A stretch of 64,000 nt of DNA, taken from Thermincola carboxydiphila. GTDB taxonomy: Bacteria; Bacillota; Thermincolia; Thermincolales; UBA2595. Shown here in pieces: positions 19,237 to 46,266 of the stretch. Every line of letters starts with the position of its first letter. Within the stretch, counting starts at the first letter, position 1. The notes below the pieces were generated by a model that made no database searches, had not been told where the DNA came from, and was given only the letters and a program-made list of their open reading frames with translations. The stretch spans positions 62,001-126,000 of the forward strand of contig JAENYP010000008.1 in assembly GCA_016841725.1 (NCBI GenBank), written 5' to 3'. The translations under genes and the position numbers were made by a program.

Positions 19237-19981
19237 AGCTGTCACCTCCTCCTTCATCCCTGCCCTCTGTATCTCCATTCATGCTGCCCATGTCCATGGG
19301 AGTCAGCAGCCTGCAATTATGTTCCGTATAGAGGCCTACCCGGTTAATCTGCGGCAGGTCGGCATCAAATTCGTTTCCCAGGTAATCCGCAAATGTCCGA
19401 ACCACCTCTTCGGGACGGACATTACCCTCACTTCCGGCTACAGTCAGAATTGAAAAATCGATTCTATCCCCAATGACAGTTCCTGTGAGTTTCTTTATTC
19501 CCGGCCGGATATTCCGGGGCCGGGGACCTTTCTTGGTCCGTTTCATTATCATCACTTCAGAAGAATCCATAAACCGGGATATCCCCTCTGTGAGGGACTC
19601 TGTATCAAGAGGACCGTTCACCGGTACAGTAACTCTATATTCCGCCCTATTTACCATAGCCATCAGTGCAGGAGAATTATCAGGCACAGCCATAGCCCCT
19701 GAGATTTGAATTCCTGCCGGGAGGGCCGCTGAAATTAGGGACATGACTTCACCTGCAGCCATCGTCTCCCTAAGTTCGATATCAATATACTCCCTGTCAC
19801 TGGTTACTCCTACTGCCAGTGCAGAAGCAAAGTTCATTTTGGGGTGTGGATTGAAGCCCTCTGAAAAAGCAATGGGAATTCCCGCCCGGCGGATTGCCCT
19901 CTCAAATGCCTTAACCATATCAAGGTGTGACAGAAACCTCACCCGGTCTCTTTTGGAAAACTCCATTCTAATCCGGGGCAT
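19229..19981 (-). CDS. Radical-SAM-linked protein, TIGR03936/DUF2344 family
   Basis: The 250-residue protein starts MPRIRMEFSKRDRVRFLSHLDM, the signature of the DUF2344/TIGR03936 family, which is either a separate protein next to, or fused to, a TIGR03960-type radical SAM protein. The partner gene lies directly upstream and overlaps it by 14 bases, which supports a joint function. Family members occur next to rng and rplU in many Firmicutes. Its biochemical role is unknown; a part in RNA or ribosome modification is only suggested by the context. Confidence 0.88.
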   Translation of the reverse strand: MPRIRMEFSKRDRVRFLSHLDMVKAFERAIRRAGIPIAFSEGFNPHPKMNFASALAVGVTSDREYIDIELRETMAAGEVMSLISAALPAGIQISGAMAVPDNSPALMAMVNRAEYRVTVPVNGPLDTESLTEGISRFMDSSEVMIMKRTKKGPRPRNIRPGIKKLTGTVIGDRIDFSILTVAGSEGNVRPEEVVRTFADYLGNEFDADLPQINRVGLYTEHNCRLLTPMDMGSMNGDTEGRDEGGGDSFA

Positions 19982-21842
19982 TATTCTTTGCCCCCTTTAA
20001 GTCAAGCGCTGCCGGAAGACTCTGGCACACCCCGCAGAGAGTGCACTCTTCATGCCTGCAGTCAGCTGTTATCTCCTCACTGAATGCCCTTTTATACTCT
20101 GAAAGCAGAAATTCTTTGGTAACACCTGCATCGATGTGATCCCACGGAAGGGTCTCATCCAAAGCAAAACCTCTCTGACTATAGAACCCCGGATCCACAC
20201 CGGTCTCCCGGAACGCCTCCTGCCAGGTATCATACTTGAAGTGCTCGTTCCAGCTATCAAACTTGCAGCCACAGGCCCATGCCCGCTCCAGGGCTGCTGC
20301 CACCTTACGGCTGCCTCTGGAAAATACAGCTTCAATCGTACTCAGACGGGCATCATGCCAGTTGAATACAAGCCTGCGGTGTTTTAATTTCCTGGCAAGG
20401 TATTGCTGCTTTTCCTGCAGGGCCTCCATACTGTCCTGGGCTACCCACTGGAACGGGGTATGGGGTTTTGGTACAAACGATGAAGCGCTTACGGTAATTC
20501 TGAGTCTCCCGGCCCGGTTTCCCAGAATATCCCGGCCGCGGTCCACCACCTTAAAAGCCAGGTCGGCGATGCCATCAAGGTCCTCATAAGTTTCTGCAGG
20601 CAGGCCAATCATAAAGTACAGCTTAACTGAGGTCCAGCCTGCCTCAAAAGCTCCGGTGACTGCTTCCATAAGGTTATCTTCAGTTACCCCTTTGTTGATA
20701 ACATCACGCATACGCTGGGTCCCTGCCTCGGGAGCAAAAGTAAGAGTGGTTTTCCTGACCCGTTGCACCTCTTTTGCCAGGTCAACGGAAAAGGAATCAG
20801 CCCTTAGTGAAGGCAGGGACACCCCTACCCCCTCTGAACCAAACTTGTCCATCAGTGAAGTCAGGACACCCTGAACACAGCTATAGTCGCTAGTACTCAG
20901 AGAAGTCAGGGATATCTCATCATAGCCTGTGTTTTTAACCAGGTTCTCGGCCTGGGTAACTATCGTTTCCGGCCTTTTCTCCCGGACCGGCCGGTAAATC
21001 ATTCCAGCCTGGCAGAAGCGGCAGCCCCTGCTGCACCCCCTGAGCACCTCCAGCATAATCCGGTCATGGACAATCTCCATAAAAGGTACTATCGGGCTGG
21101 TAGGAAAATCTACCCCATCCAGGTCCCTGACCACTCGCTTGGTCACCCTGGAAGGAACGAAAGACACTTGAGGGACCACCCCTTTGATGGTCCCGTCATC
21201 ATGATAACTAACTTCATAAAACTCAGGGACATATACTCCCGATACTCCGGCCAGCTCTTTAAGCAGGTCACTCCTTTTACGCGGTGTGGCGCCCTGCTTC
21301 CATTTCCTGATTATCCCGATAATATCATGGATAGCTTCCTCGCCTTCCCCCAACAGAAAGGCATCAATAAACGGCGCCAGTGGTTCCGGATTATATGCAG
21401 TGGGACCCCCGGCCAAAACCAGCGGCCAACTGTCACCCCGCTGTGCTGCCCTCAGGGGGATCCCTGCCAGGTCCAGCATGTTCAGCAGGTTGGTATAACT
21501 CATCTCATACTGCAGGGTAAAAGCAATGGCATCAAAATCTGCCAGAGGCCTGACAGATTCGAGAGAAAACAGCGGCAGGCCATGCTGCCTCAACTGTTCC
21601 TCCATATCCACCCATGGCGCAAAAACCCGCTCCATTAGAGTATCTTCCCTGGTATTGACGATGTGGTACAATATGCGCAGACCCAGGTGAGACATCCCTA
21701 CTTCGTAAACATCGGGAAAAGCAAAAACCATCCTGACAGGTGTATCATCCCAGTCCTTATGGACAGAATTCCATTCATTCCCCTGGTATCGGGCCGGTTT
21801 CTGTACCTTGGGCAAAATCCTGTTTTCAATAAATTGTTTCAT
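19968..21842 (-). CDS. Radical SAM protein, TIGR03960 family
   Basis: This 624-residue protein has an N-terminal B12-binding-like region (about 1-200) and a radical SAM domain with the cluster motif CSRGCRFCQAG (about residues 255-265), where Cys residues are spaced CxxxCxxC. A Cys-rich tail (CRHEECTLCGVC) near the end could hold a second cluster. GGGAGG ten bases before the ATG at 21842 supports the start MKQFIENRILPKV. It heads the transcript TIGR03960-TIGR03936-rng under a promoter at 21880-21907. The reaction is not known. Confidence 0.9.
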   Translation of the reverse strand: MKQFIENRILPKVQKPARYQGNEWNSVHKDWDDTPVRMVFAFPDVYEVGMSHLGLRILYHIVNTREDTLMERVFAPWVDMEEQLRQHGLPLFSLESVRPLADFDAIAFTLQYEMSYTNLLNMLDLAGIPLRAAQRGDSWPLVLAGGPTAYNPEPLAPFIDAFLLGEGEEAIHDIIGIIRKWKQGATPRKRSDLLKELAGVSGVYVPEFYEVSYHDDGTIKGVVPQVSFVPSRVTKRVVRDLDGVDFPTSPIVPFMEIVHDRIMLEVLRGCSRGCRFCQAGMIYRPVREKRPETIVTQAENLVKNTGYDEISLTSLSTSDYSCVQGVLTSLMDKFGSEGVGVSLPSLRADSFSVDLAKEVQRVRKTTLTFAPEAGTQRMRDVINKGVTEDNLMEAVTGAFEAGWTSVKLYFMIGLPAETYEDLDGIADLAFKVVDRGRDILGNRAGRLRITVSASSFVPKPHTPFQWVAQDSMEALQEKQQYLARKLKHRRLVFNWHDARLSTIEAVFSRGSRKVAAALERAWACGCKFDSWNEHFKYDTWQEAFRETGVDPGFYSQRGFALDETLPWDHIDAGVTKEFLLSEYKRAFSEEITADCRHEECTLCGVCQSLPAALDLKGAKNNAPD

Positions 21843-21879
21843 CTGGCGGTTTCCTCCCAGTTTTGATATTACATTAGGT

Positions 21880-21907
21880 ATTATACCCAAAGGATGGTAT
21901 TATTCAA
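21880..21907 (-). promoter_or_regulatory. Promoter of the radical SAM-rng operon
   Basis: A perfect TATAAT (21880-21885) lies 16 bases after TTGAAT (21902-21907) on the minus strand, about 40 bases before the ATG. A TGGG just before the -10 gives partial extended -10 character. Confidence 0.7.
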
Positions 21908-23739: not shown

Positions 23740-24876
23740 TCAAAACGTGAGTACCTGCCGCCTGAGGTAAACATCCAATAATATTCCGACACCCATCATA
23801 TTAGCCAGCATAGAGCTGCCCCCATAACTGAAAAAAGGCAGGGGGATACCGGTTATAGGCATGATTCCGGCCGCCATACCAATATTGACCAGAAGGTGAA
23901 ATACAATCATGGAAACTATGCCGGTTGCCAGCAGGGTTCCCAGCAGGTCCTTTGATTTCATGGCAATCCGGATCCCTCGGAAAACGAACATATAAAACAG
24001 AGCCAAAAGCACAATAACACCTGCAAAGCCCAGTTCTTCCCCAACCACAGAAAAAATAAAGTCATTTTTTTGTTCGGGAAGAAAGTTAAGCCTGGTCTGT
24101 GTCCCCTGATAGAGGCCTTTTCCCCAGAGCCCCCCGGAACCAAGGGATACCATAGACTGGATAACATGATAACCGGTATCCTTGGGGTCCTTGTACGGGT
24201 CCACAAAAATAGTGAGGCGGTCAAGCTGATACGGTTTCAGAGGTTTTTCAAAACCGAAGGCCAGTTGTGCCGTGAGAATGCCGCCCACCAGCAAAGCACC
24301 GATTAACACCAGCACCATAAGGTGTGAAGGCTTGGCTCCGGCCACAAACATCATGCCAAAGTAAATCCCTATAAAAACCAGTCCGGTTCCCAGATCAGGC
24401 TGCAGAATAATCAGCATCATAGGGACACCAAAGAAAATAAATGTAGGAATAAGGTCGCGAAACTTGGTCAGTTTTCCCTCCTTGCCTGCCAGGTAAACCG
24501 CAAAGGTAACAATCATGGCGATTTTGGCAAATTCTGAAGGCTGAAGGTTAAAAGACCCTATAGATATCCAGGACTGAGCGCCTTTCTGTTCCTCTCCGAA
24601 AAATCTTACAAACACGAGCAGCATAACATTCATGGCATAAATAAACTTGGCATACTTGGCAAACCGCACATAGTCGATTTTAAGGATAATACCAATTCCT
24701 ACCAACCCCAAAACAAAGGAAAGAGCCTGCTTCTTCACATATATATCAGCATCTCCGCCCCTGGTCATAGTAGCATGTGTTGCACTGCTCAAAATAATCA
24801 ATCCATAAACAACAATCAGTATTATTGTAATGAGGAGAGTAAAATCAAAGTTTCTTATCGCTCTGCGGTCAATCAA
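23740..24876 (-). CDS. rodA: Peptidoglycan polymerase RodA (SEDS family)
   Basis: RodA polymerises lipid II into glycan strands in the elongation machinery, working with a class B PBP and MreBCD. The 378-residue protein has about ten hydrophobic segments. The signature around PITGIPLPFFSYGGSSMLANM near the C-terminus is typical of SEDS proteins, and a periplasmic loop carries the conserved block DPYKDPKDTGYHVIQS. It follows minE and precedes a terminator, so it probably ends the long mre-mrdA-min cluster, though minE has its own terminator. Confidence 0.95.
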   Translation of the reverse strand: MIDRRAIRNFDFTLLITIILIVVYGLIILSSATHATMTRGGDADIYVKKQALSFVLGLVGIGIILKIDYVRFAKYAKFIYAMNVMLLVFVRFFGEEQKGAQSWISIGSFNLQPSEFAKIAMIVTFAVYLAGKEGKLTKFRDLIPTFIFFGVPMMLIILQPDLGTGLVFIGIYFGMMFVAGAKPSHLMVLVLIGALLVGGILTAQLAFGFEKPLKPYQLDRLTIFVDPYKDPKDTGYHVIQSMVSLGSGGLWGKGLYQGTQTRLNFLPEQKNDFIFSVVGEELGFAGVIVLLALFYMFVFRGIRIAMKSKDLLGTLLATGIVSMIVFHLLVNIGMAAGIMPITGIPLPFFSYGGSSMLANMMGVGILLDVYLRRQVLTF

Positions 24877-25010: not shown

Positions 25011-25298
25011 TTAACCGATCTTTTCCTTCCGGTTGGATGTCCTCTTCATCCTCAGGACAGGAATATTGGCAACCAGCGCCACTGTATTATTGGAGCTGTC
25101 CAGATTAACTTCGAGAGCATTTTCATCAATCTCCATATAATTGGAAATGACCTTTATCAGATCTTCCTTCAAGTCTTCAATCAGCTGAGGAGACATGTCT
25201 GCCCGATCATGGACCAGCACCAGGCGCAGCCTTTCCTTGGCAACATTTTTACTTGAACTGTTATCTTTCCCGAACACCCGTAATAGAAAATCCAGCAA
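25011..25298 (-). CDS. minE: Cell division topological specificity factor MinE
   Basis: MinE drives MinD oscillation by stimulating its ATPase, so the Z-ring forms at midcell. The 95-residue protein has the N-terminal membrane-targeting and anti-MinCD segment (about 1-35, with ERLRLVLVHDRA) and the dimerising C-terminal domain. Endospore formers such as Bacillus use DivIVA instead; MinE with spore genes is found in several Clostridia. It lies 28 bases after minD. Confidence 0.95.
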   Translation of the reverse strand: MLDFLLRVFGKDNSSSKNVAKERLRLVLVHDRADMSPQLIEDLKEDLIKVISNYMEIDENALEVNLDSSNNTVALVANIPVLRMKRTSNRKEKIG

Positions 25299-25326: not shown

Positions 25327-26121
25327 CTACTTAAATCCGATAAGCTTTTTGAGCTTGTACATTAATCCTGTTTCCGCTTCCAAGTCCATTAAGGGTACAT
25401 CCTCACCGGTTATTCTTCTTGCCACATTTCGATAAGCCTGTCCAGCGCGGGAATTGTTATCGAGAACAGCCGGTTCACCTTTATTAGTAGTAATTACAAT
25501 CATTTCATCTTCCGGAACGACTCCCAGGAGGTCAATAGCCAGGATGTCGATTATATCATCAATGCTCATCATGTCTCCTCTTTTTACCATGAGAGGCCTC
25601 AACCGGTTAACGATAAGTTTCGGGTTGTGTAATTCAGCCGCTTCCAATAAACCAATAATCCTGTCAGCATCACGGACAGCCGATACTTCCGGGGTAGTTA
25701 CCACAATAGCCTTCTCGGCGCCGGCGATGGCGTTCTTAAAACCTTGTTCAATTCCGGCGGGACAGTCAATTATTACATAATCAAATTCCTTTTTCAGTTG
25801 GGCACATAGTTCACGAATCTGATCAGGAGTCACCGAAGTCTTATCCTTAGTCTGAGCGGCAGGCAGAAGGTGCAGCCCTTCAAATCGCTTATCCTTAATC
25901 AGGGCCTGCTTTAACCTGCAATTCCCGTGAGTCACGTCAACAATATCATAAACTATCCTGTTTTCCAGCCCCAAAACAACATCCAGGTTCCGCAGACCTA
26001 TATCCGTATCCACCAGGACTACCTTAAGACCCGAAGCGGCCAGTCCGGTTCCAATATTAGCCGTAGTGGTGGTTTTGCCAACTCCTCCTTTTCCAGAGGT
26101 TATTACAATGACTTCTCCCAT
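25327..26121 (-). CDS. minD: Septum site-determining ATPase MinD
   Basis: MinD is a ParA-type ATPase that binds the membrane as an ATP dimer and recruits MinC. The 264-residue protein has the deviant Walker A motif KGGVGKTTT (about residues 11-19), the switch block VDTDIGLRNLD, and the C-terminal amphipathic membrane anchor YKLKKLIGFK. It lies between minC and minE with short gaps. Confidence 0.97.
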   Translation of the reverse strand: MGEVIVITSGKGGVGKTTTTANIGTGLAASGLKVVLVDTDIGLRNLDVVLGLENRIVYDIVDVTHGNCRLKQALIKDKRFEGLHLLPAAQTKDKTSVTPDQIRELCAQLKKEFDYVIIDCPAGIEQGFKNAIAGAEKAIVVTTPEVSAVRDADRIIGLLEAAELHNPKLIVNRLRPLMVKRGDMMSIDDIIDILAIDLLGVVPEDEMIVITTNKGEPAVLDNNSRAGQAYRNVARRITGEDVPLMDLEAETGLMYKLKKLIGFK

Positions 26122-26146: not shown

Positions 26147-26860
26147 TTAGCCTATTTTTGTTTGCCTGTCCTGTCCCATCTGATATACTTCAATCACCAC
26201 AACGCCATCTTTTATTCTGGCTATTTCCGGATACTCCGGCGTTAGGTAATCACCATCAGGCGCTCTGGTAATATGATTTGCTATCCGCAGCTGCATCGGC
26301 TGAAGCTTAAATGCCGCAACAGTTGCATTTTCATTCCCCAATGCCCCGGCGTGAACTACACCACGTAATGCGCCCATGACCACAATATTTCCTGAAGCGA
26401 CTATTTCTGAACCCGGGTTAACATCACCCATTACAACTACATTGCCGTCAAACCGGACACTCTGGCCGGACCTTACGGTCCTTTGTATCAGAATTGTGTT
26501 ATCATCAGCAAAAGCCTCCTGCCACGGGCCCCTGTTTTTTATCACTCTGGAATCTGTTTTCGTCTGCCCGGCAGGTTCGTTTTCCTCAGCAATAATCTCA
26601 TCTGCTTCTGGAATTGCTGTCCCTGGAAGGAATTCCCCACTTTCATCCTGAGCCGGCTCCCGATCAGCCTTTTTGCGTTTCTGTCTGCCCTTTTTGATTT
26701 CCTGTGCCGGAACCGTTTCCCTTGCCTTAACAGTTTCGCCTTCTTTACCTTTCTCCTGTTCGGTATCCACAGAATCCGTATTGATATCAGGGTCATTAAC
26801 TCCATTTGTTTCGTTTTTAAAAAATAATTTCTTACCTTTAGAACTTTTGGTCTTCTTCAC
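26147..26860 (-). CDS. minC: Septum site-determining protein MinC with atypical N-terminus
   Basis: MinC inhibits FtsZ at the poles. The C-terminal half (about residues 115-225) has the MinC beta-helix with repeats such as VRFDGNVVVMGDVNPG and GNIVVMGALRGVVHAG and binds MinD. The N-terminal 105 residues, where the FtsZ-inhibiting domain should be, are highly charged and of low complexity, rich in Lys and Glu, and look disordered. The protein is 237 residues, a normal overall length, so the domain is replaced rather than simply lost. minD follows 25 bases downstream. Confidence 0.88.
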   Translation of the reverse strand: MKKTKSSKGKKLFFKNETNGVNDPDINTDSVDTEQEKGKEGETVKARETVPAQEIKKGRQKRKKADREPAQDESGEFLPGTAIPEADEIIAEENEPAGQTKTDSRVIKNRGPWQEAFADDNTILIQRTVRSGQSVRFDGNVVVMGDVNPGSEIVASGNIVVMGALRGVVHAGALGNENATVAAFKLQPMQLRIANHITRAPDGDYLTPEYPEIARIKDGVVVIEVYQMGQDRQTKIG

Positions 26861-26951
26861 TTTGGTTCTCCTCCTGAGCTAAAAAAGCTCAAAATATCCT
26901 GAATCATTGGATTTAAATTCTACAAAAGGTAGTCAAATCCTTCTGTATCAA

Positions 26952-27010: not shown

Positions 27011-29041
27011 TTACTCTTCTGAAACTCCACCCTGTGGTATCTGGTTTTTGTCAATCCTGAAATACTCTGCCAGGAGGTCCCTGGCAACTAAACCTGCCGA
27101 ACTGCCTCCATGCCCGGCATATTCGATAATACCTGCTACAGCAACCTCAGGTTTGTCATAAGGAGCATAGGCGACAAAAAGTCCGTGGGTAGGTTTGTCA
27201 TTTCCATTTTTGTCTTTTCCGGTCTCTGCAGACCCCGTTTTTCCGGCAACTTCGACGGGAAACTCTCTGAAAATACCGTAAGCTGTACCGCCAGGCTCGG
27301 TAACAGCCTTCATACCTCGCCTGACAGCGGCCAGTGTTTCGGGACTGACATCAACTTTACCGACTTCCTTTTTATCATATTTTTTGACAATATCACCCTT
27401 GTAGTCAACAACACTGTCCACCAAATAAGGCTGATACCTGATACCACCGTTGGCTATTGCAGCAACATAATTGGCAAGTTGGAGGGGAGTATAAAGGTTG
27501 TAACCCTGGCCGATGGACATGATGATTGTCTCATATTCACGCCACTCAACAGACCAGTATGCCTCGTTATTGTATTCCCTCTTTTTCCACTTCAGCTCGT
27601 TTTCCTTTTGTTTAAGCAGCCGGTTCTCTTCACTTTCGGACTTGGCATTACTAATCTTTTCAGCATATTCATCCTCAATCTCCTGGTACATCTTTTCATA
27701 CTTCTCCTGTAATGACGGTTCATTTAGCTGCCTTTTCCATTCCGGACCCGGTATCAGCCCGGAAGCCTCATTAGGCAGATCAATCCCGGTTTTCTGCCCC
27801 AGGCCGAATTCGCGGACATATTTAGCCAGGTTTTCAACCCCTGCTTTCAACCCCATCTGGTAGAAGTAAACATTGCAGGAAGTCTGGATTGCTTTAATCA
27901 GGTTGACTGTACCGTGACCAGATGGTTTCCAGCAACCATATGAACGACCATAGAGGTATACCGAACCCGGGTCAAATATTGTATCATTGATTGTTGCCTT
28001 ACCGGACTCCAAGACTGCCGAAGCAGTAATCATCTTAAATGTAGATCCGGGAGGATAAGCCATCATGGCCCTGTTATTGAAGGCCGGAAACGGGTTGGTT
28101 TTTTTACCGCCAAACAGCGCCTCACTCTGCTCAGGAGTAATTTTCCCATTAAACAAATTGGGGTCAAAACCCGGTTTACTTGCCATTGCCAGTACTTTCC
28201 CCGAGTTCACGTCAAGCATAACAACTGCTCCGGCCTTGGCATTAGGGTATTCACCCTGCTGCAGTGAAGCCATGGTCCGGTCAAGGGACTCTTCAGCAAC
28301 CTTCTGCAGCCTATAATCAATATTCAAAATAAGATTATTGCCTGGAACAGGCTGTTCTTTGGCCAGCTCCCTGACAGGGTGCTGGGACTTATCAACTTCT
28401 ACCAGAAGGTTGCCATCCTGCCCCCGCAGAAACTCCTCATACATATTCTCAAGCCCCGCCTGGCCGTACCGGTCCCCCATGCTGTAGCCATCATCCTTAT
28501 GCCGTTCCAGCTGTTTCTCGGTAATCTCCCTGACATACCCGAGGATATGTGGCATAAAGTCCTGATATACATATTCCCGCATCGGTTCCACGGCTATTTC
28601 CACCCCAGGCAGTTCCGCCCTGTTTTCCTCAATTTTGGTAACTACCTCCAAAGGTACGTCTTTGGCAATTCTGATGGGTTCAAACTTCCTAATGCCCGGG
28701 TCTTTGATTTTTTCCTTAATTTCGTTTTCATTAATTTCCAAAATTGGTGCCAGGCTTGCCGCAACCTTATCAAGGTTCTGGTCCTGGATGCCGAGCCAGC
28801 TCACAGACACACTGTATACCGGACGGTCTTTGGCAAGGATAACCTTCCCGGTACTGTCGAGAACTTCTCCTCTCTTCGCAGGAATGGTAATGGGTCTTAT
28901 CCTGTTTTGCTCCGAAAGGGTTGTAAACCGCTCTGTCTGTACCAATTGAACGTAAGCAATCCTTGAAATCAGGATGGCAAAAATAATCGTCACAAGGGCC
29001 AAAAATACCTTCAATTTTTTGACCAGAATTTTTTCAGTCAT
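27011..29041 (-). CDS. mrdA: Penicillin-binding protein 2 (class B transpeptidase)
   Basis: This class B PBP cross-links peptidoglycan during elongation with RodA. The 676-residue protein has one N-terminal membrane anchor (about 10-32), a dimerisation domain, and a transpeptidase domain with GSTFK (Ser near residue 335) and KTGSAE (about 605). A segment of roughly 55 residues (about 440-500), very rich in Glu and Lys, is inserted in the transpeptidase domain and is predicted by eye to form a coiled coil. It lies 25 bases after mreD. Confidence 0.95.
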   Translation of the reverse strand: MTEKILVKKLKVFLALVTIIFAILISRIAYVQLVQTERFTTLSEQNRIRPITIPAKRGEVLDSTGKVILAKDRPVYSVSVSWLGIQDQNLDKVAASLAPILEINENEIKEKIKDPGIRKFEPIRIAKDVPLEVVTKIEENRAELPGVEIAVEPMREYVYQDFMPHILGYVREITEKQLERHKDDGYSMGDRYGQAGLENMYEEFLRGQDGNLLVEVDKSQHPVRELAKEQPVPGNNLILNIDYRLQKVAEESLDRTMASLQQGEYPNAKAGAVVMLDVNSGKVLAMASKPGFDPNLFNGKITPEQSEALFGGKKTNPFPAFNNRAMMAYPPGSTFKMITASAVLESGKATINDTIFDPGSVYLYGRSYGCWKPSGHGTVNLIKAIQTSCNVYFYQMGLKAGVENLAKYVREFGLGQKTGIDLPNEASGLIPGPEWKRQLNEPSLQEKYEKMYQEIEDEYAEKISNAKSESEENRLLKQKENELKWKKREYNNEAYWSVEWREYETIIMSIGQGYNLYTPLQLANYVAAIANGGIRYQPYLVDSVVDYKGDIVKKYDKKEVGKVDVSPETLAAVRRGMKAVTEPGGTAYGIFREFPVEVAGKTGSAETGKDKNGNDKPTHGLFVAYAPYDKPEVAVAGIIEYAGHGGSSAGLVARDLLAEYFRIDKNQIPQGGVSEE

Positions 29042-29066: not shown

Positions 29067-29567
29067 TTACCTTTCTGTTACTTTCAGCAGCCCCTTAGTT
29101 GACGAACTATAGAACTTACCATATATAAAAGGTGTCAGGCAGCTATTATAGATGGCAGCAGATATCATAACACTCCTGAGAGCGCCCAAATACCCCCCTG
29201 ACATTCCTTCATACTGCCTTAACAGGTAAAGTACACTTTCACTCAGTAGTGTAGCCACAAATATTATCGCCATGGGAATTAAGATGTTTTCCTTGTAAAT
29301 CTTCTTTTCCAGCATTCCAAAACTAAATCCCACAACTATCTTGGCAAGGGCATTCATTCCCAGGTTCTGACCAAACAATAAATCCTGCATCAGTCCCCCG
29401 ATGGCTCCGGCTGTGGCGCCCTCCTTCGAACCGTGCAGCAGGGCATAGAATACTGTCATTATCAATACAAAATCAGGTTTAACACCGGCAACAGTGAGAT
29501 GGGAGAAAATCGTGGACTGAAGAATCAAACCAATGAGAAACAAAATGGAAATTACCAGGTAACGCAT
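29067..29567 (-). CDS. mreD: Rod shape-determining protein MreD
   Basis: MreD is an integral membrane protein of the elongation machinery. The 166-residue product has about five hydrophobic segments and the family motif HGSKEGATAGAIGGLMQDLL (about residues 45-64). It starts directly after mreC with no gap and precedes mrdA. Confidence 0.93.
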   Translation of the reverse strand: MRYLVISILFLIGLILQSTIFSHLTVAGVKPDFVLIMTVFYALLHGSKEGATAGAIGGLMQDLLFGQNLGMNALAKIVVGFSFGMLEKKIYKENILIPMAIIFVATLLSESVLYLLRQYEGMSGGYLGALRSVMISAAIYNSCLTPFIYGKFYSSSTKGLLKVTER

Positions 29568-30434
29568 TTACGCCCCCTCCCTGTCAACAGGAGCAGTTTC
29601 ATTTACTGCCGGAGCATTTCTGATAACCAGCACCTCTTCGAGTTCATTGAAATCCACAAAAGGCCTGACAGTGGCATATTTCACCAGACCGTTTGACTCC
29701 AACTCAATCCCGATTACCGTTCCAATAGGCAGCCCTTTGGGAAAAATCCCGCCAAGACCTGATGAAATAACAGTCTGTTTGGCAATAACCGGAGCTTCCT
29801 TGGAAAGATGAATCATTTTCAGCATTCCGGAATCATCGGCTTTTCCCTCAATGACTCCCGGCACCCGGTTAATTTGGATCAGACTTCCCACAGCGCTGCT
29901 GCTGTCTATAATCAGCAAGACCTCGGCAGAGTTAGCGGATACATTAATAACACGCCCCACTAACCCCTTACTGGTTACCACGGCCATGTTTTTCGCCAAA
30001 CCGTCACTTTCTCCTCTGTTGATGGTAATTGTGCGGAACCAGTTTGACGGATTTCTGGCCACAACTGAGGCGGATACCGTATTGTAATCCCGGGCTACGG
30101 TGTCCTTGAACTGCAGTAACTCCCTCAACCTCAGGTTCTGGTACTCGTATTCCCTGAGCAGGTTATTTTCCGCTTCCAGGCTTGATATCCGTTCCCGAAG
30201 CTCTTCATTTTCATTTTTGATACTTCCAATGGAAAGAACAGACCCGACTGTATCAGAGATACCGTTAACAATACCGGTAACCCCGTGTTCAACCGGGGTT
30301 ACCACATCCTTGATTACTCTCTCAACAGGGCTGAGACCCGTCCTGTCCTGACCCGTATAGGTTATCAGGACAAGGGCCAGTACAATCAGGCTGAGAAAAC
30401 CAAGGACATACCTGTTTAGAATGTACCGGAACAA
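29568..30434 (-). CDS. mreC: Rod shape-determining protein MreC
   Basis: MreC is a single-pass protein that links cytoplasmic MreB to the periplasmic transpeptidase. The 288-residue product has a membrane anchor (about 10-27), a coiled-coil segment (about 70-100, rich in Glu and Leu) and a C-terminal beta-rich domain with motifs such as GLVGRVINVS and SGLGGIFPKGLPIG typical of the family. It lies 15 bases after mreB. Confidence 0.95.
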   Translation of the reverse strand: MFRYILNRYVLGFLSLIVLALVLITYTGQDRTGLSPVERVIKDVVTPVEHGVTGIVNGISDTVGSVLSIGSIKNENEELRERISSLEAENNLLREYEYQNLRLRELLQFKDTVARDYNTVSASVVARNPSNWFRTITINRGESDGLAKNMAVVTSKGLVGRVINVSANSAEVLLIIDSSSAVGSLIQINRVPGVIEGKADDSGMLKMIHLSKEAPVIAKQTVISSGLGGIFPKGLPIGTVIGIELESNGLVKYATVRPFVDFNELEEVLVIRNAPAVNETAPVDREGA

Positions 30435-30449
30435 AACAACCCCGCCTTT

Positions 30450-31487
30450 CTAGCCGATTTTTTTCGGGGTAATTAAAACTCTCTTGAGAACATCCAGGTT
30501 TTCTAAAACCTTCCCTGTCCCGACAGCCACACAGAACAAAGGCTCATCGGCAACATAAACTGGCATGCCGGTTTCTTCACTGACCAGTTGATCAAGGCCC
30601 CTCAACAGAGAGCCGCCTCCGGCCATGACTATCCCCCTGTCCATAACGTCAGATGCCAATTCCGGCGGTGTCTTTTCCAGAGTCACTTTAATGGCTTCCA
30701 GGATGCTGCTAACCGGTTCCGATAAGGCTTTATGAACCTCATCAGATGTAATCTCAACTGTTTTGGGCAGCCCTGTAAGCAGGTCACGCCCACGGACCTC
30801 ATAAAGCTCTTTCTGCGGGAACCGGTATGCTGTGCCAATTTTTATTTTAATTTCTTCAGATGTACGTTCTCCCACCATCAAATTATATGTCCTCTTAATG
30901 TGCTGCATGATGGCTTCATCCATTTCATCACCGGCAATACGCACCGAGCGGCTGGTTACAATCCCCCCCAGGGAGATAACCGCAACCTCGCTGGTACCAC
31001 CCCCGATATCCACTATCATATTTCCGGTAGGCTCATGAACCGGCAGACCGGCTCCAATGGCCGCTGCCATCGGTTCTTCTATCAGATATGCCTCCCTGGC
31101 CCCTGCCTGTATGGTAGCCTCCCTGACAGCGCGTTCTTCAACTGCCGTTACTCCTGAAGGCACACATACGACAACCCTGGGTCTGATCAGGTGAGGCCTT
31201 TTTTTCAAGGCTTTGGTAATAAAATAGCGCAGCATACTCTGAGTAGTGTCAAAATCAGCGATAACCCCGTCTTTCATAGGCCTGATAGCAACTATATTGC
31301 CCGGAGTACGACCAATCATCTGCTTGGCCTCTTCACCGACAGCAAGGACATGTCCCGTATCTCTCTGGATAGCAACAACAGACGGTTCGTTAACAACTAT
31401 CCCCTTGCCCTTAATATAAACAGATGAATTGGCAGTGCCTAAATCTATACCCATATCTTTGGAAAAAATCCCAAATAATCCCAACAT
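30450..31487 (-). CDS. mreB: Rod shape-determining actin homologue MreB
   Basis: MreB filaments guide lateral wall synthesis. The 345-residue protein has the actin-fold phosphate motifs [10 protein letters not shown] near the N-terminus and [16 protein letters not shown] (about 160-175), the family block [16 protein letters not shown], and [14 protein letters not shown] near the end. It starts the mreB-mreC-mreD-mrdA run, 35 bases after radC. Confidence 0.97.
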
Positions 31488-43315: not shown

Positions 43316-45958
43316 TTACTGCAAACTTTTCAACCTTTCCTCCAAAGCACTTTTCTTTTCCATGAATCCGTCCTGTTTGGCCTTTTCTTTTTCAATTACA
43401 TCAGCAGGCGCTTTATCAAGGAATCCCTTATTGGATAGTTTCCCATTAACCCGGATAAGTTCTTTCTCCAAAGCGGCCAGTTCTTTCCGGAGCCTGGCAA
43501 TCTCTTTGTCAATATCAATCAGGCCCTTAAGGGGCATAAATATTTCCAAACCCCCGGTCATAGCTGTCACAGCCTGTTCCGGCTTGGTATTCAAAGAACG
43601 GGCAACCGCCATTTCCGATGCTGCTCCTAACTGTTCAACATATTCCCTGCCGTCATTTAGAGCAGCATAATTCATCTCGGTATTTGCAGCAATAATTATT
43701 TCTGCTTTTCGTGAAGGCGGGACATTCATCTCACCCCTAATGTTCCTTACAGCTTTTACTGTTTCCATGACCACAGTCATTTTTTCCACTGATTCATCAT
43801 CATTTAATGAATCACTGTAAACGGGCCACTCCTGGGTCATAATGGTTGCTCCCTCGTGGGGCAGGTGCTGCCAGATTTCCTCAGTAATAAACGGCATCAT
43901 CGGGTGCAGCAGTTTAAGGGTGTTTGACAGCACGTACCATAGTACATATTGGGCTGTTTTTTTGCTGGCCTCATCTTTTTTCCCATACAAAGCCGGTTTA
44001 ACCAGCTCAATATACCAGTCACAGAACTCGTTCCAGATAAATTCGTATATTATTTTGGCCGCTTCGCCCAGGTCGTATCTCTCCAGGTTCCGGGCAACTT
44101 CCCTGGCAGTTTCATTATAACGGGACAAAATCCACCGGTCTGCCAGGGAATATTCCTGACCGACTTCTTCCGGGCTGAACCCTTCAAGGTTCATCATGAC
44201 AAACCGGGAAGCATTCCATATTTTGTTGGCAAAATTCCGCGTGTTCTCCAGACGCTCAAAGTGGAACCTCAAATCGTTCCCCGGGGTATTGCCTGTAATC
44301 AGCATAAACCTGAGAGTATCGGCACCAAATTTGTCAATGACTTCTATGGGGTCAACACCGTTATTCAGAGACTTACTCATCTTCCTGCCCTGGGAGTCCA
44401 GTATCAGGCCATGGATGAAGACTTCGGCAAAGGGAGGCTCCTTCATAAATTCCAGACCCATAAATATCATCCTGGCCACCCAGAAGAATATGATATCCCT
44501 GCCGGTGACCAGAACCGATGTGGGATAGAAATGTTCCAGTTCAGTGGTTTTTTCCGGCCAGCCCAGGGTGGAGAAGGGCCACAGACCCGAACTGAACCAG
44601 GTATCCAGCACATCAGGGTCCTGTTCCAGCTGTTGGCTGCTGCATTTATTACAACTGGCAGGAACTTCAGTATCACAAATAATCTCGCCACATTCCCGGC
44701 AGTACCATACAGGTATCCGGTGGCCCCACCACAACTGGCGCGATATGCACCAGTCGCGGATGTTTTCCATCCAGTTGAGATAGACCTTGGTAAACCTCTC
44801 CGGGACAAACTTGATCCTGCCCTCTTTGGCTGCCCTGATAGCCGGTTCAGCCAGGGGCTTCATTTTGACGAACCACTGCTTGGAAATCATTGGCTCAACA
44901 GTTGTCGCACACCGGTAACACTGGCCTACCGAATGAGTGTGGTCCTCAACCTTGAGAAGGAAACCGCCTTCCTCCAGTTCCTTGAGAATCTCCCTGCGGC
45001 ATTCGTACCTATCCATGCCCTGATACTTGCCTGCCTCATCATTCATGGTGCCGTCAAGATTCATGACATTGATTTCCGGAAGGTTGTGCCTCTTGCCAAC
45101 CTCAAAGTCGTTGGGGTCATGAGCAGGAGTAATTTTAACTACACCTGTCCCGAACTCGGGGTCAACATAGGCATCGGCAACTACCGGGATTTCCCTGCCC
45201 ACAATGGGAAGGATCACGGTTTTGCCTACCAGGTGACCATATCTTTCATCATCAGGATGGACTGCCACGGCAGTATCACCAAGCATAGTTTCCGGCCGTG
45301 TTGTAGCCAGGTATACATATTCATCACTGTGTTTTACCGGATACCTCAGATGATAAAAATGACCGCCCTGCTCCTCATGTTCCACCTCAATATCCGAAAT
45401 AGTGGTACGGCATTTGGGACACCAGTTTATAATGTAATTATCCTGGTAAATCAACCCCTTGCGGTACAGGTCCACAAAGACCTTCTGAACCGCCTTAGAA
45501 CATCCCTCATCCATGGTAAACCTTTCCCGGTCCCAGTCACAGGAAGAACCGATAACCCTCAACTGACCGGCTATCCTATCATGGTACAGTTCTTTCCATT
45601 CCCAGACACGTTTGAGGAACTTTTCCCGGCCCAGGTCATATTTGGACAGGCCTTCTTTGGCAATCTGCTCTTCAACCTTGGCCTGGGTGGCAATCCCGGC
45701 ATGGTCGGTCCCTGGCATCCAAAGGGCATTATACCCCTGCATCCGCCGCCACCTGGTAAGGATGTCCTGAAGCGTATTATCCATAGCATGTCCCATGTGC
45801 AGGGCCCCGGTGACATTGGGCGGGGGCATCACAATAGTAAACGGTTTCTTATCCTTTTCCACTTCAGCATGGAAAAAACCGTTTGTTTCCCAGAAGTCAT
45901 AAAGTCTCTTTTCAACCTGCTGCGGGTCATAAGTTGTCGGTATGTTTTTCTGTTCCAT
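43316..45958 (-). CDS. valS: Valyl-tRNA synthetase
   Basis: ValS charges tRNA-Val. The 880-residue class I enzyme has the HIGH-type motif [11 protein letters not shown] (about 50-60), KMSKS (in [10 protein letters not shown], about 525), an editing domain between them and a C-terminal coiled coil (about 815-880). It lies downstream of a valine T-box leader, so its expression should rise when tRNA-Val is uncharged. folC follows 55 bases downstream. Confidence 0.97.
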
Positions 45959-45986: not shown

Positions 45987-46266
45987 AAAAAATAAAAAAA
46001 CTCCTTTATCCTGTAAGGACGAAAGAAGTTTCCGCGGTACCACCTTAGTTCCGGACACCTTTTGGTTCCGGCTCTCCTGATTTGCTGTAACGGGCTGCCC
46101 GGCGCCGCCTACTAAAAGCTTTCGGCGGCACAACTCCGGAGCGACTTCGAATCCTTTAACCACCAGGGAGCCTTTCAGCCAGGGGCCACCCCTCTCTGTG
46201 AGGTCAGGTAATTCTACTACTCTCCTTCAACGCATATAAAAATAATATCTAATTTAATATGTCTGA
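45987..46266 (-). ncRNA. T-box riboswitch, valine specific
   Basis: The conserved T-box sequence AAGGTGGTACCGCGG lies at 46032-46046 on the minus strand, and a terminator hairpin (arms near AACTTCTTTCGTCC and GGATAAAGGAGTT, then T-rich) ends at about 45987. In the stem I region a GTC codon at 46143-46145 follows GAA, matching a valine specifier. The leader is therefore expected to sense uncharged tRNA-Val and antiterminate valS. Confidence 0.93.

Follow-up and report, generated by a model that had tools for sequence, protein, structure and literature searches.

Textbook accounts of Min systems describe one MinC made of two domains. The min operon of the spore-forming bacterium Thermincola carboxydiphila raises the question of what a MinC can do when its own gene encodes the MinD-binding half alone, and of where an FtsZ-disrupting half could then come from. 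An earlier, sequence-only reading of this gene offered two answers, namely that the N-terminal part acts by other means, or that FtsZ inhibition has been given up in this lineage.

According to PMC3618327, MinD and the FtsZ tail are both bound by MinC_C, helix H10 of FtsZ is the target of MinC_N, and the two domains act jointly. MinC_C is a tight dimer, and its RSGQ motif contacts MinD helix 7 (PMC5548801, excerpt).

Genomic context of the locus

The window, i.e., the whole stretch of 64,000 nucleotides that was analyzed, is part of contig C24 of a 3.88 Mb genome with a completeness of 99.99%. Its minus strand carries a cluster in the order mreB-mreC-mreD-mrdA-minC-minD-minE-rodA, with the following features:

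23740–24876, minus strand: rodA, downstream in the same cluster (TIGR02210, above cut-off)
25011–25298, minus strand: minE (PF03776, E 1.4e-27)
25327–26121, minus strand: minD (TIGR01968, E 2.5e-124)
26147–26860, minus strand: minC, C-domain-only (short MinC), 237 aa (Pfam MinC_C only)
26180–26503, minus strand: MinC_C beta-solenoid, residues 120–227 (AlphaFold2 block means 81–97; Foldseek match 4v02, E 3e-11)
26462–26473, minus strand: RSGQ motif, residues 130–133, predicted MinD-binding site (found in 44/44 operonic short MinCs)
26504–26860, minus strand: charged, disordered N-terminal tail, residues 1–119 (AlphaFold2 pLDDT 50–62)
26915–26943, minus strand: putative sigma-H-like promoter, GAAGGATTT-N11-GTAGAATTT (15/15 positions of RNAGGAWWW-N11-RNNGAATWW)
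27011–29041, minus strand: mrdA (penicillin-binding protein 2), directly upstream of minC (TIGR03423, above cut-off)
29067–31487, minus strand: mreD, mreC, and mreB (TIGR03426, TIGR00219, and NF010539, above cut-off)

The window minC is thus linked to minD and minE, and both partners are normal, as had been stated from the sequence. Elsewhere in the window, a T-box leader (Rfam RF00230, 116.6 bits) lies at 46012–46239 on the minus strand, just 5' of an 880-aa frame (43316–45958).

The short MinC of the min operon

The window gene has an open frame starting with a GTG codon, and AGGAGGAG, read from the sequence a few bases 5' of it (26868–26875), is part of a good ribosome-binding site. With Pfam, MinC_C covers residues 125–223 (E 3.1e-34), and MinC_N is not matched at E values up to 1. 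A FapA match of the C-domain, under Pfam's cut-off, was disregarded. The NCBIfam minC models cover just the C half of the protein. Since the gene scores above the cut-off of TIGR01222, NCBI's general minC model, annotation alone hides the missing MinC_N.

Structure prediction with AlphaFold2, using a 37-row alignment of the window MinC and named relatives, divides the protein in the same way. Block means of pLDDT are 50–60 for residues 1–110 and 62 for residues 111–120, then 91–97 for residues 121–200 and 81–94 for residues 201–230, the confident beta-solenoid starting around residue 121. The first secondary structure element of the model is a short helix at residues 112–117; there is thus no MinC_N fold at residues 1–100, where such a fold had been proposed as the thing to look for. 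Foldseek returned nine matches at E values up to 0.001 (weaker ones being disregarded), every one of them a MinC (4v02, 1hf2, 6riq, and 5xdm among them). Residues 1–110 contain 23 K+R and 23 D+E. The description of a normal MinD-binding domain preceded by a charged, disordered segment without MinC_N is therefore borne out.

A frameshift or an assembly error was considered as the cause and rejected: the sole MinC_N of the genome lies on another contig (six-frame search, E up to 10), relatives carry the same short gene, and no N occurs within 700 bases upstream in any of the 44 short loci compared below. A missed, frameshifted MinC_N in the window gene is unlikely.

A second, complete minC in the same genome

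The six-frame search of the genome gave one MinC_N match, at C7:51726–51941 (E 1.9e-12), and a MinC_C match at C7:52113–52409 (E 2.1e-33). Genome-wide, there are two strong MinC_C matches, plus three weak ones under the cut-off. The matches on contig C7 correspond to one gene:

Contig C7, L007:8712–9443: complete stand-alone minC, 243 aa in one frame (MinC_N E 4.4e-12, MinC_C E 3.7e-33)

The 8.7 kb before this gene contain none of the 13 window min/mre cluster genes, and contig C7 ends 105 bases past it. About 50 bases past the gene (L007:9496–9548) begins a sequence resembling a group II intron at its 5' end; Rfam, at the gathering threshold, gave no match in this truncated stretch at the contig end. 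One minD and one minE score above cut-off in the genome, both inside the window. The search for another minC, which the sequence-only reading had suggested, thus returned a complete gene standing alone, and its presence removes the need to assume a loss of FtsZ inhibition in this organism.

Distribution of the MinC pair

The pair is conserved in the order of the window genome, the Thermincolales. Each of the seven genomes with a completeness of 90% or more carries two MinC_C and one MinC_N, which speaks against a lineage-wide loss of FtsZ inhibition. Over all 10 genomes of the order, MinC_C is present in 10 and MinC_N in nine, the genome without MinC_N being 63% complete; the three less complete genomes count one, one, and two MinC_C. 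Additional MinC_N matches under the cut-off occur in G006 and G004.

In a sample of 299 near-complete genomes, evenly spread over the phylum, MinC_C was found in 248 and MinC_N in 227. Two MinC_C are present in 72 genomes from 25 families, with one MinC_N in 62 of these, two in seven, and none in three. Among the 62, 37 genomes were opened, picked for a listed short frame and a separate MinC_N, and all 37 pairs consist of a short operonic gene and a complete stand-alone gene. In G271, also one of the 62, the sole MinC_N match sits in the operonic gene. G148 and G301 have two MinC_C and no MinC_N match, and in G109 a contig end cuts the stand-alone copy. The family f16 is an exception to the stand-alone pattern: in the four genomes opened (L276–L279, 4/4), the complete minC belongs to a minD-minE-minC cluster, apart from the mre cluster type.

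Five further genomes (G106, G182, G205, G227, and G248) have one MinC_C gene each and no MinC_N match anywhere in the genome. In G106, G182, and G248 (L098, L099, and L139), this gene is a short operonic minC of 121–127 aa, followed by minD and minE. A short MinC can, therefore, exist without a complete partner. By tally, about 21 of the 299 genomes have MinC_C without a MinC_N match, of which G106, G182, G248, G109, and G148 were opened. From lists compared by eye, spoIVA is present in 72/72 genomes with two MinC and in 256/299 overall. Loss of the complete MinC as a consequence of sporulation loss was rejected, as the five genomes with MinC_C only keep spoIVA.

A scan of named genomes covered the best 80 of 276 relatives. 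By profile, MinC_N is absent at 61 loci, a count that includes two artefacts (L175 and L220) and two unsure cases (L164 and L206), and present at 19. The next gene is minD at 60 of the 61 loci without MinC_N (the contig ends there in L161) and at all 19 with it. Among these best 80 relatives, short operonic MinCs were found in Thermincola, Desulfotruncus, Desulfoscipio, Desulfallas, Sporotomaculum, Pelotomaculum, Desulforamulus, Desulfofundulus, Desulfovirgula, Desulforadius, and Moorella, and complete operonic ones in Heliobacterium chlorum, Heliophilum fasciatum, and Syntrophaceticus schinkii. MinC_N was searched for in 24 of the 80 genomes, that of L220 being dropped for an assembly gap. 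One complete MinC (MinC_N and MinC_C) was found in 22 of the remaining 23, and the short stretches flanking it contain no gene from the 13 of the cluster. In the 23rd, a UBA2595 MAG roughly 1.7 Mb in size, MinC_N was not matched.

Selection on the two forms

For comparison, 102 minC genes were divided into 44 operonic short genes (that of the window, 40 from other genomes with two MinC, and three from MinC_C-only genomes), 38 stand-alone genes, and 20 single operonic complete genes, the latter from genomes hand-chosen among those with one MinC_C match. A gene was classed as operonic when minD lay within the fetched stretch.

Within the genus, residues 111–237 of the short gene evolve with a dN/dS of 0.05–0.10; with this value and an intact frame, pseudogene status was rejected. 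RSGQ is present in 44/44 short MinCs, 24/38 stand-alone ones, and 17/20 single operonic ones, and the looser R-x-G-Q in 33/38 stand-alone MinCs. The C-domain is more similar between short MinCs than between stand-alone MinCs in 701 of 703 genome pairs.

The two domains of the complete forms also differ in their conservation. Single operonic MinCs share 57% identity in the C-domain and 29% in the N-domain (N above C in 0/190 pairs), and stand-alone MinCs 44% and 46%, respectively (N above C in 380/666 pairs). At a MinD identity of 0.6–0.7, the values are 0.33 (C) and 0.43 (N) for stand-alone MinCs, against 0.57 and 0.28 for single operonic ones; at 0.8–0.9, they are 0.53 and 0.50, against 0.66 and 0.45, the operonic values coming from three pairs only. 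A looser C-domain and a firmer N-domain than in ordinary MinC would be the mark expected of divided work. This shift appears over long distances only, where long branches (several stand-alone ones are very long) and the differing genome set may bias it; within the genus, the stand-alone gene has a dN/dS of 0.05–0.06 in the C-domain and 0.09–0.19 in the N-domain, as in ordinary MinC.

In trees built on 108 columns, the monophyly of the short operonic genes was not rejected (AU p 0.213 with L220, 0.185 without), and well-supported branches force at least two changes in the tree with L220 and at least three in that without. Monophyly of the stand-alone genes was not rejected with L220 (p 0.884, the better tree), and the well-supported branches of the L220-free tree force at least three changes.

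Origin of the N-terminal tail

In an alignment of nine genomes of the order, three of them trimmed to a common start, the majority fraction is 0.79 for residues 1–15, 0.31 for residues 16–105, 0.60 for residues 106–118, and 0.92 for residues 119–227. The middle of the tail, residues 16–105, is thus free to vary across the order. The basic stretch at residues 1–15 (e.g., MKKTKSSKGKKLFFK) is recognizable in all nine and, judging from this conservation, may serve some minor function. Before the C-domain, the 44 homologues have from 8 to 119 residues, and residues 17–110 show a dN/dS of 0.34–0.57 within the genus. Such variable length and loose constraint, together with a linker-like N-terminus in a related family, give little ground for the suggestion that the N-terminal part acts in place of MinC_N.

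This related family, f27, is Thermacetogenium- and Syntrophaceticus-like, judging by genome names. Its complete operonic MinCs (L263, L270–L273, and L275) have a long interdomain linker, mostly K/R/E-rich; the linker of L274 is shorter. In the near relatives L188, L193, L198, and L211, the linker and the C-domain are kept, with 70–72% identity to those of L275, and MinC_N is absent before the linker, in a stretch free of N. In L198 and L211, a leader like that of L270 and L271 is fused in frame to the linker, with a weak leader match (E 0.2–0.5). In L193, a stop separates the linker from the old leader, and in L188 the frame changes between the two. The genome of L211, the one searched among these four, has one complete stand-alone MinC. 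The deletion evidence excludes L220, L175 (cut by a contig end), L164 (fewer than 300 bases upstream), and L206 (17 N upstream). L220 had been considered as a decaying MinC_N and was rejected, as a run of 251 N spans the place of the domain, and the operonic gene may well be complete.

As this neighboring family lost MinC_N and kept the linker, the tail of the window protein most likely represents the former interdomain linker, which remained when MinC_N was deleted. For the order of the window, this would extend what is seen in f27, no complete operonic relative being present among those examined in the order. In the simplest order of events, a second complete minC would have appeared first; the operonic copy would then have lost its MinC_N, the charged linker becoming the new N-terminus. 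G229, also in f27, has two complete MinCs, one operonic (L263) and one stand-alone (L264), and G034 is alike, its operonic gene being split by contig ends (L265–L267). This arrangement is plausible as an intermediate.

Sigma-H-like sites before both genes

Sigma-H controls minC, minD, and minE in Clostridioides difficile, and minC and minD in Bacillus subtilis (PMC4905992, in its available part). A search pattern, RNAGGAWWW-N11/12-RNNGAATWW, scored over 15 positions, was derived from the sigma-H consensus given in an excerpt of PMC8510167. Putative sites matching 15/15 positions precede both genes of this genome; that of the short minC begins 83 bases ahead of the gene, and that of the stand-alone minC (L007:8632–8660) 80 bases ahead. 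Scores of at least 14 occur before 24/44 short, 21/37 stand-alone, and 13/20 single operonic minC genes. Most control genes scored far lower at this threshold: 0/64 for minD, 0/63 for minE, 0/60 for mreB, 0/62 for mreC, 0/61 for mreD, 0/57 for radC, 0/39 for an M23 gene, 1/62 for mrdA, 1/36 for an M50 gene (M23 and M50 being provisional labels), and 3/57 for maf. Higher controls were rodA and its relatives (6/63), the radical-SAM gene described below, and other frames of at least 200 aa in the stand-alone loci (28/339).

Sigma-H control of minC is already known; what is new here is a sigma-H-like, putative site before both copies. Control by sigma-H was rejected as a divider between stand-alone and operonic minC, since both carry such sites. 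Two side observations came from this search. The -10-like element is often CGAA before stand-alone genes, and GTAGAA before operonic short genes. The TIGR03960 radical-SAM gene (window 19968–21890 and homologues) reaches a score of at least 14 in 14/41 cases, above most of its neighbors.

Proposed division of labor and alternative explanations

We favor, with a probability of about 0.55, a division of labor between the two minC genes, in which the short form rides the MinDE pattern and pairs or competes with the complete MinC. The absence of MinC_N from the window gene, the second complete gene, the conservation of the pair, and the selection on the short gene were computed directly. The min operon, with MinD and MinE, would yield a MinC reduced to the C-terminal domain, which would be recruited by MinD through its RSGQ face, dimerize via the beta-solenoid, and move along the MinDE pattern. 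This behavior is expected because MinC_C dimerizes and RSGQ meets MinD (PMC3618327 and PMC5548801, both in part). The complete MinC, from its separate lone gene, would supply the FtsZ-disrupting N-domain. As both forms share the same dimerizing, MinD-binding domain, they would likely mix, most likely either as heterodimers or in rivalry for MinD sites, and mixing would set the amount of MinC_N activity on the membrane and, presumably, its effect on the Z ring. The conserved RSGQ and the sigma-H-like sites before both genes are likewise computed results; if both promoters are active, the ratio of short to complete MinC would be governed separately by the two.

Pairing may be dispensable on both sides. 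Since R-x-G-Q is kept in 33 of the 38, the stand-alone MinC can probably bind MinD unaided, and G106, G182, and G248, without a MinC_N match, support some independent use of the short MinC. A broader and only tentative form of the proposal is that, in many endospore-forming Bacillota, MinC is a heterodimer of a docking short subunit and an FtsZ-disrupting complete subunit, some lineages having kept docking only.

The main rival to divided labor is that the short MinC acts by itself on the FtsZ tail, the complete MinC being an extra, stronger inhibitor. Overproduced E. coli MinC_C does bind the FtsZ tail and inhibit Z rings, although the same source, in its available part, takes the physiological MinC_C-FtsZ contact to serve most likely for targeting (PMC3618327). 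Genomes G106, G182, and G248, with short operonic MinC, minD, and minE and no MinC_N match, would suit such direct action; however, according to an excerpt of PMC5548801, E. coli cells became only slightly longer when MinC_C was overproduced by itself, and we regard this rival as unlikely. Somewhat more doubtful still is a stage swap, in which vegetative cells would rely on the short MinC, whereas the complete MinC would be produced chiefly when sporulation starts, under the control of sigma-H. It would account for the sigma-H-like sites (at least 14/15 positions) before 21/37 stand-alone genes, for the lack of a detectable sigma-70-like site before the stand-alone copy of this genome (L007:8390–8711), and for spoIVA in every genome with two MinC. 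Yet the operonic minC has an equally good sigma-H-like site, be it short (24/44) or complete (13/20), and spoIVA is found in 256/299 genomes regardless, the five MinC_C-only genomes included.

Two other explanations are highly improbable. That FtsZ inhibition was abandoned in the lineage, or moved to the charged tail, would fit a window gene without MinC_N and a tail conserved at residues 1–15 in the order, but the genome has a complete second minC, which counts against this reading if the gene is expressed, the part before the C-domain is down to eight residues in homologues, and its middle is weakly constrained; a minor role for the charged tail is still conceivable. It is just as hard to credit that the short gene is decaying and persists only for the sake of operon structure, the stand-alone gene being the sole working MinC. 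The 5' ends of short genes are indeed in flux in the neighboring family (the stop of L193, the out-of-frame leader of L188), but the C-domain dN/dS of 0.05–0.10, RSGQ in 44/44, and better conservation than the stand-alone C-domain in 701/703 pairs are at odds with decay, as are the good ribosome-binding site and the gene's own sigma-H-like site.

Relation to known systems and significance

The window protein shares its MinC_C beta-solenoid and RSGQ with canonical MinC (E. coli, B. subtilis, and T. maritima, 1hf2), whose gene adjoins minD in many genomes, as here. Canonical MinC has MinC_N, whereas the window gene lacks it and a second gene supplies it. Structures of MinC_C alone or with MinD (4v02 from A. 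aeolicus, 6riq from P. aeruginosa, and 5xdm from E. coli) show about the same domain as the window protein, which adds a disordered tail; they represent fragments or laboratory constructs, whereas the window protein is the product of a natural min operon gene. With the sigma-H-controlled min genes of C. difficile and B. subtilis (PMC4905992, in part), the window shares a sigma-H-like site just before minC; it differs in that the lineage has two separately located minC genes, both preceded by such a site. Among the titles and abstracts of the matches listed, a set with the subscription literature mostly outside, none was found to describe a gene for the C-domain of MinC alone that accompanies a complete one.

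A MinD-binding half that is naturally encoded by a separate gene offers a test of MinC_C alone, hitherto studied by laboratory truncations. If the heterodimer proposal is true, the subunit ratio would tune inhibition, and some lineages would run a Min system without any MinC_N. Genomes with the short form only make it testable whether MinDE places division without MinC_N, and Min models for spore-formers of this kind need two MinC species.
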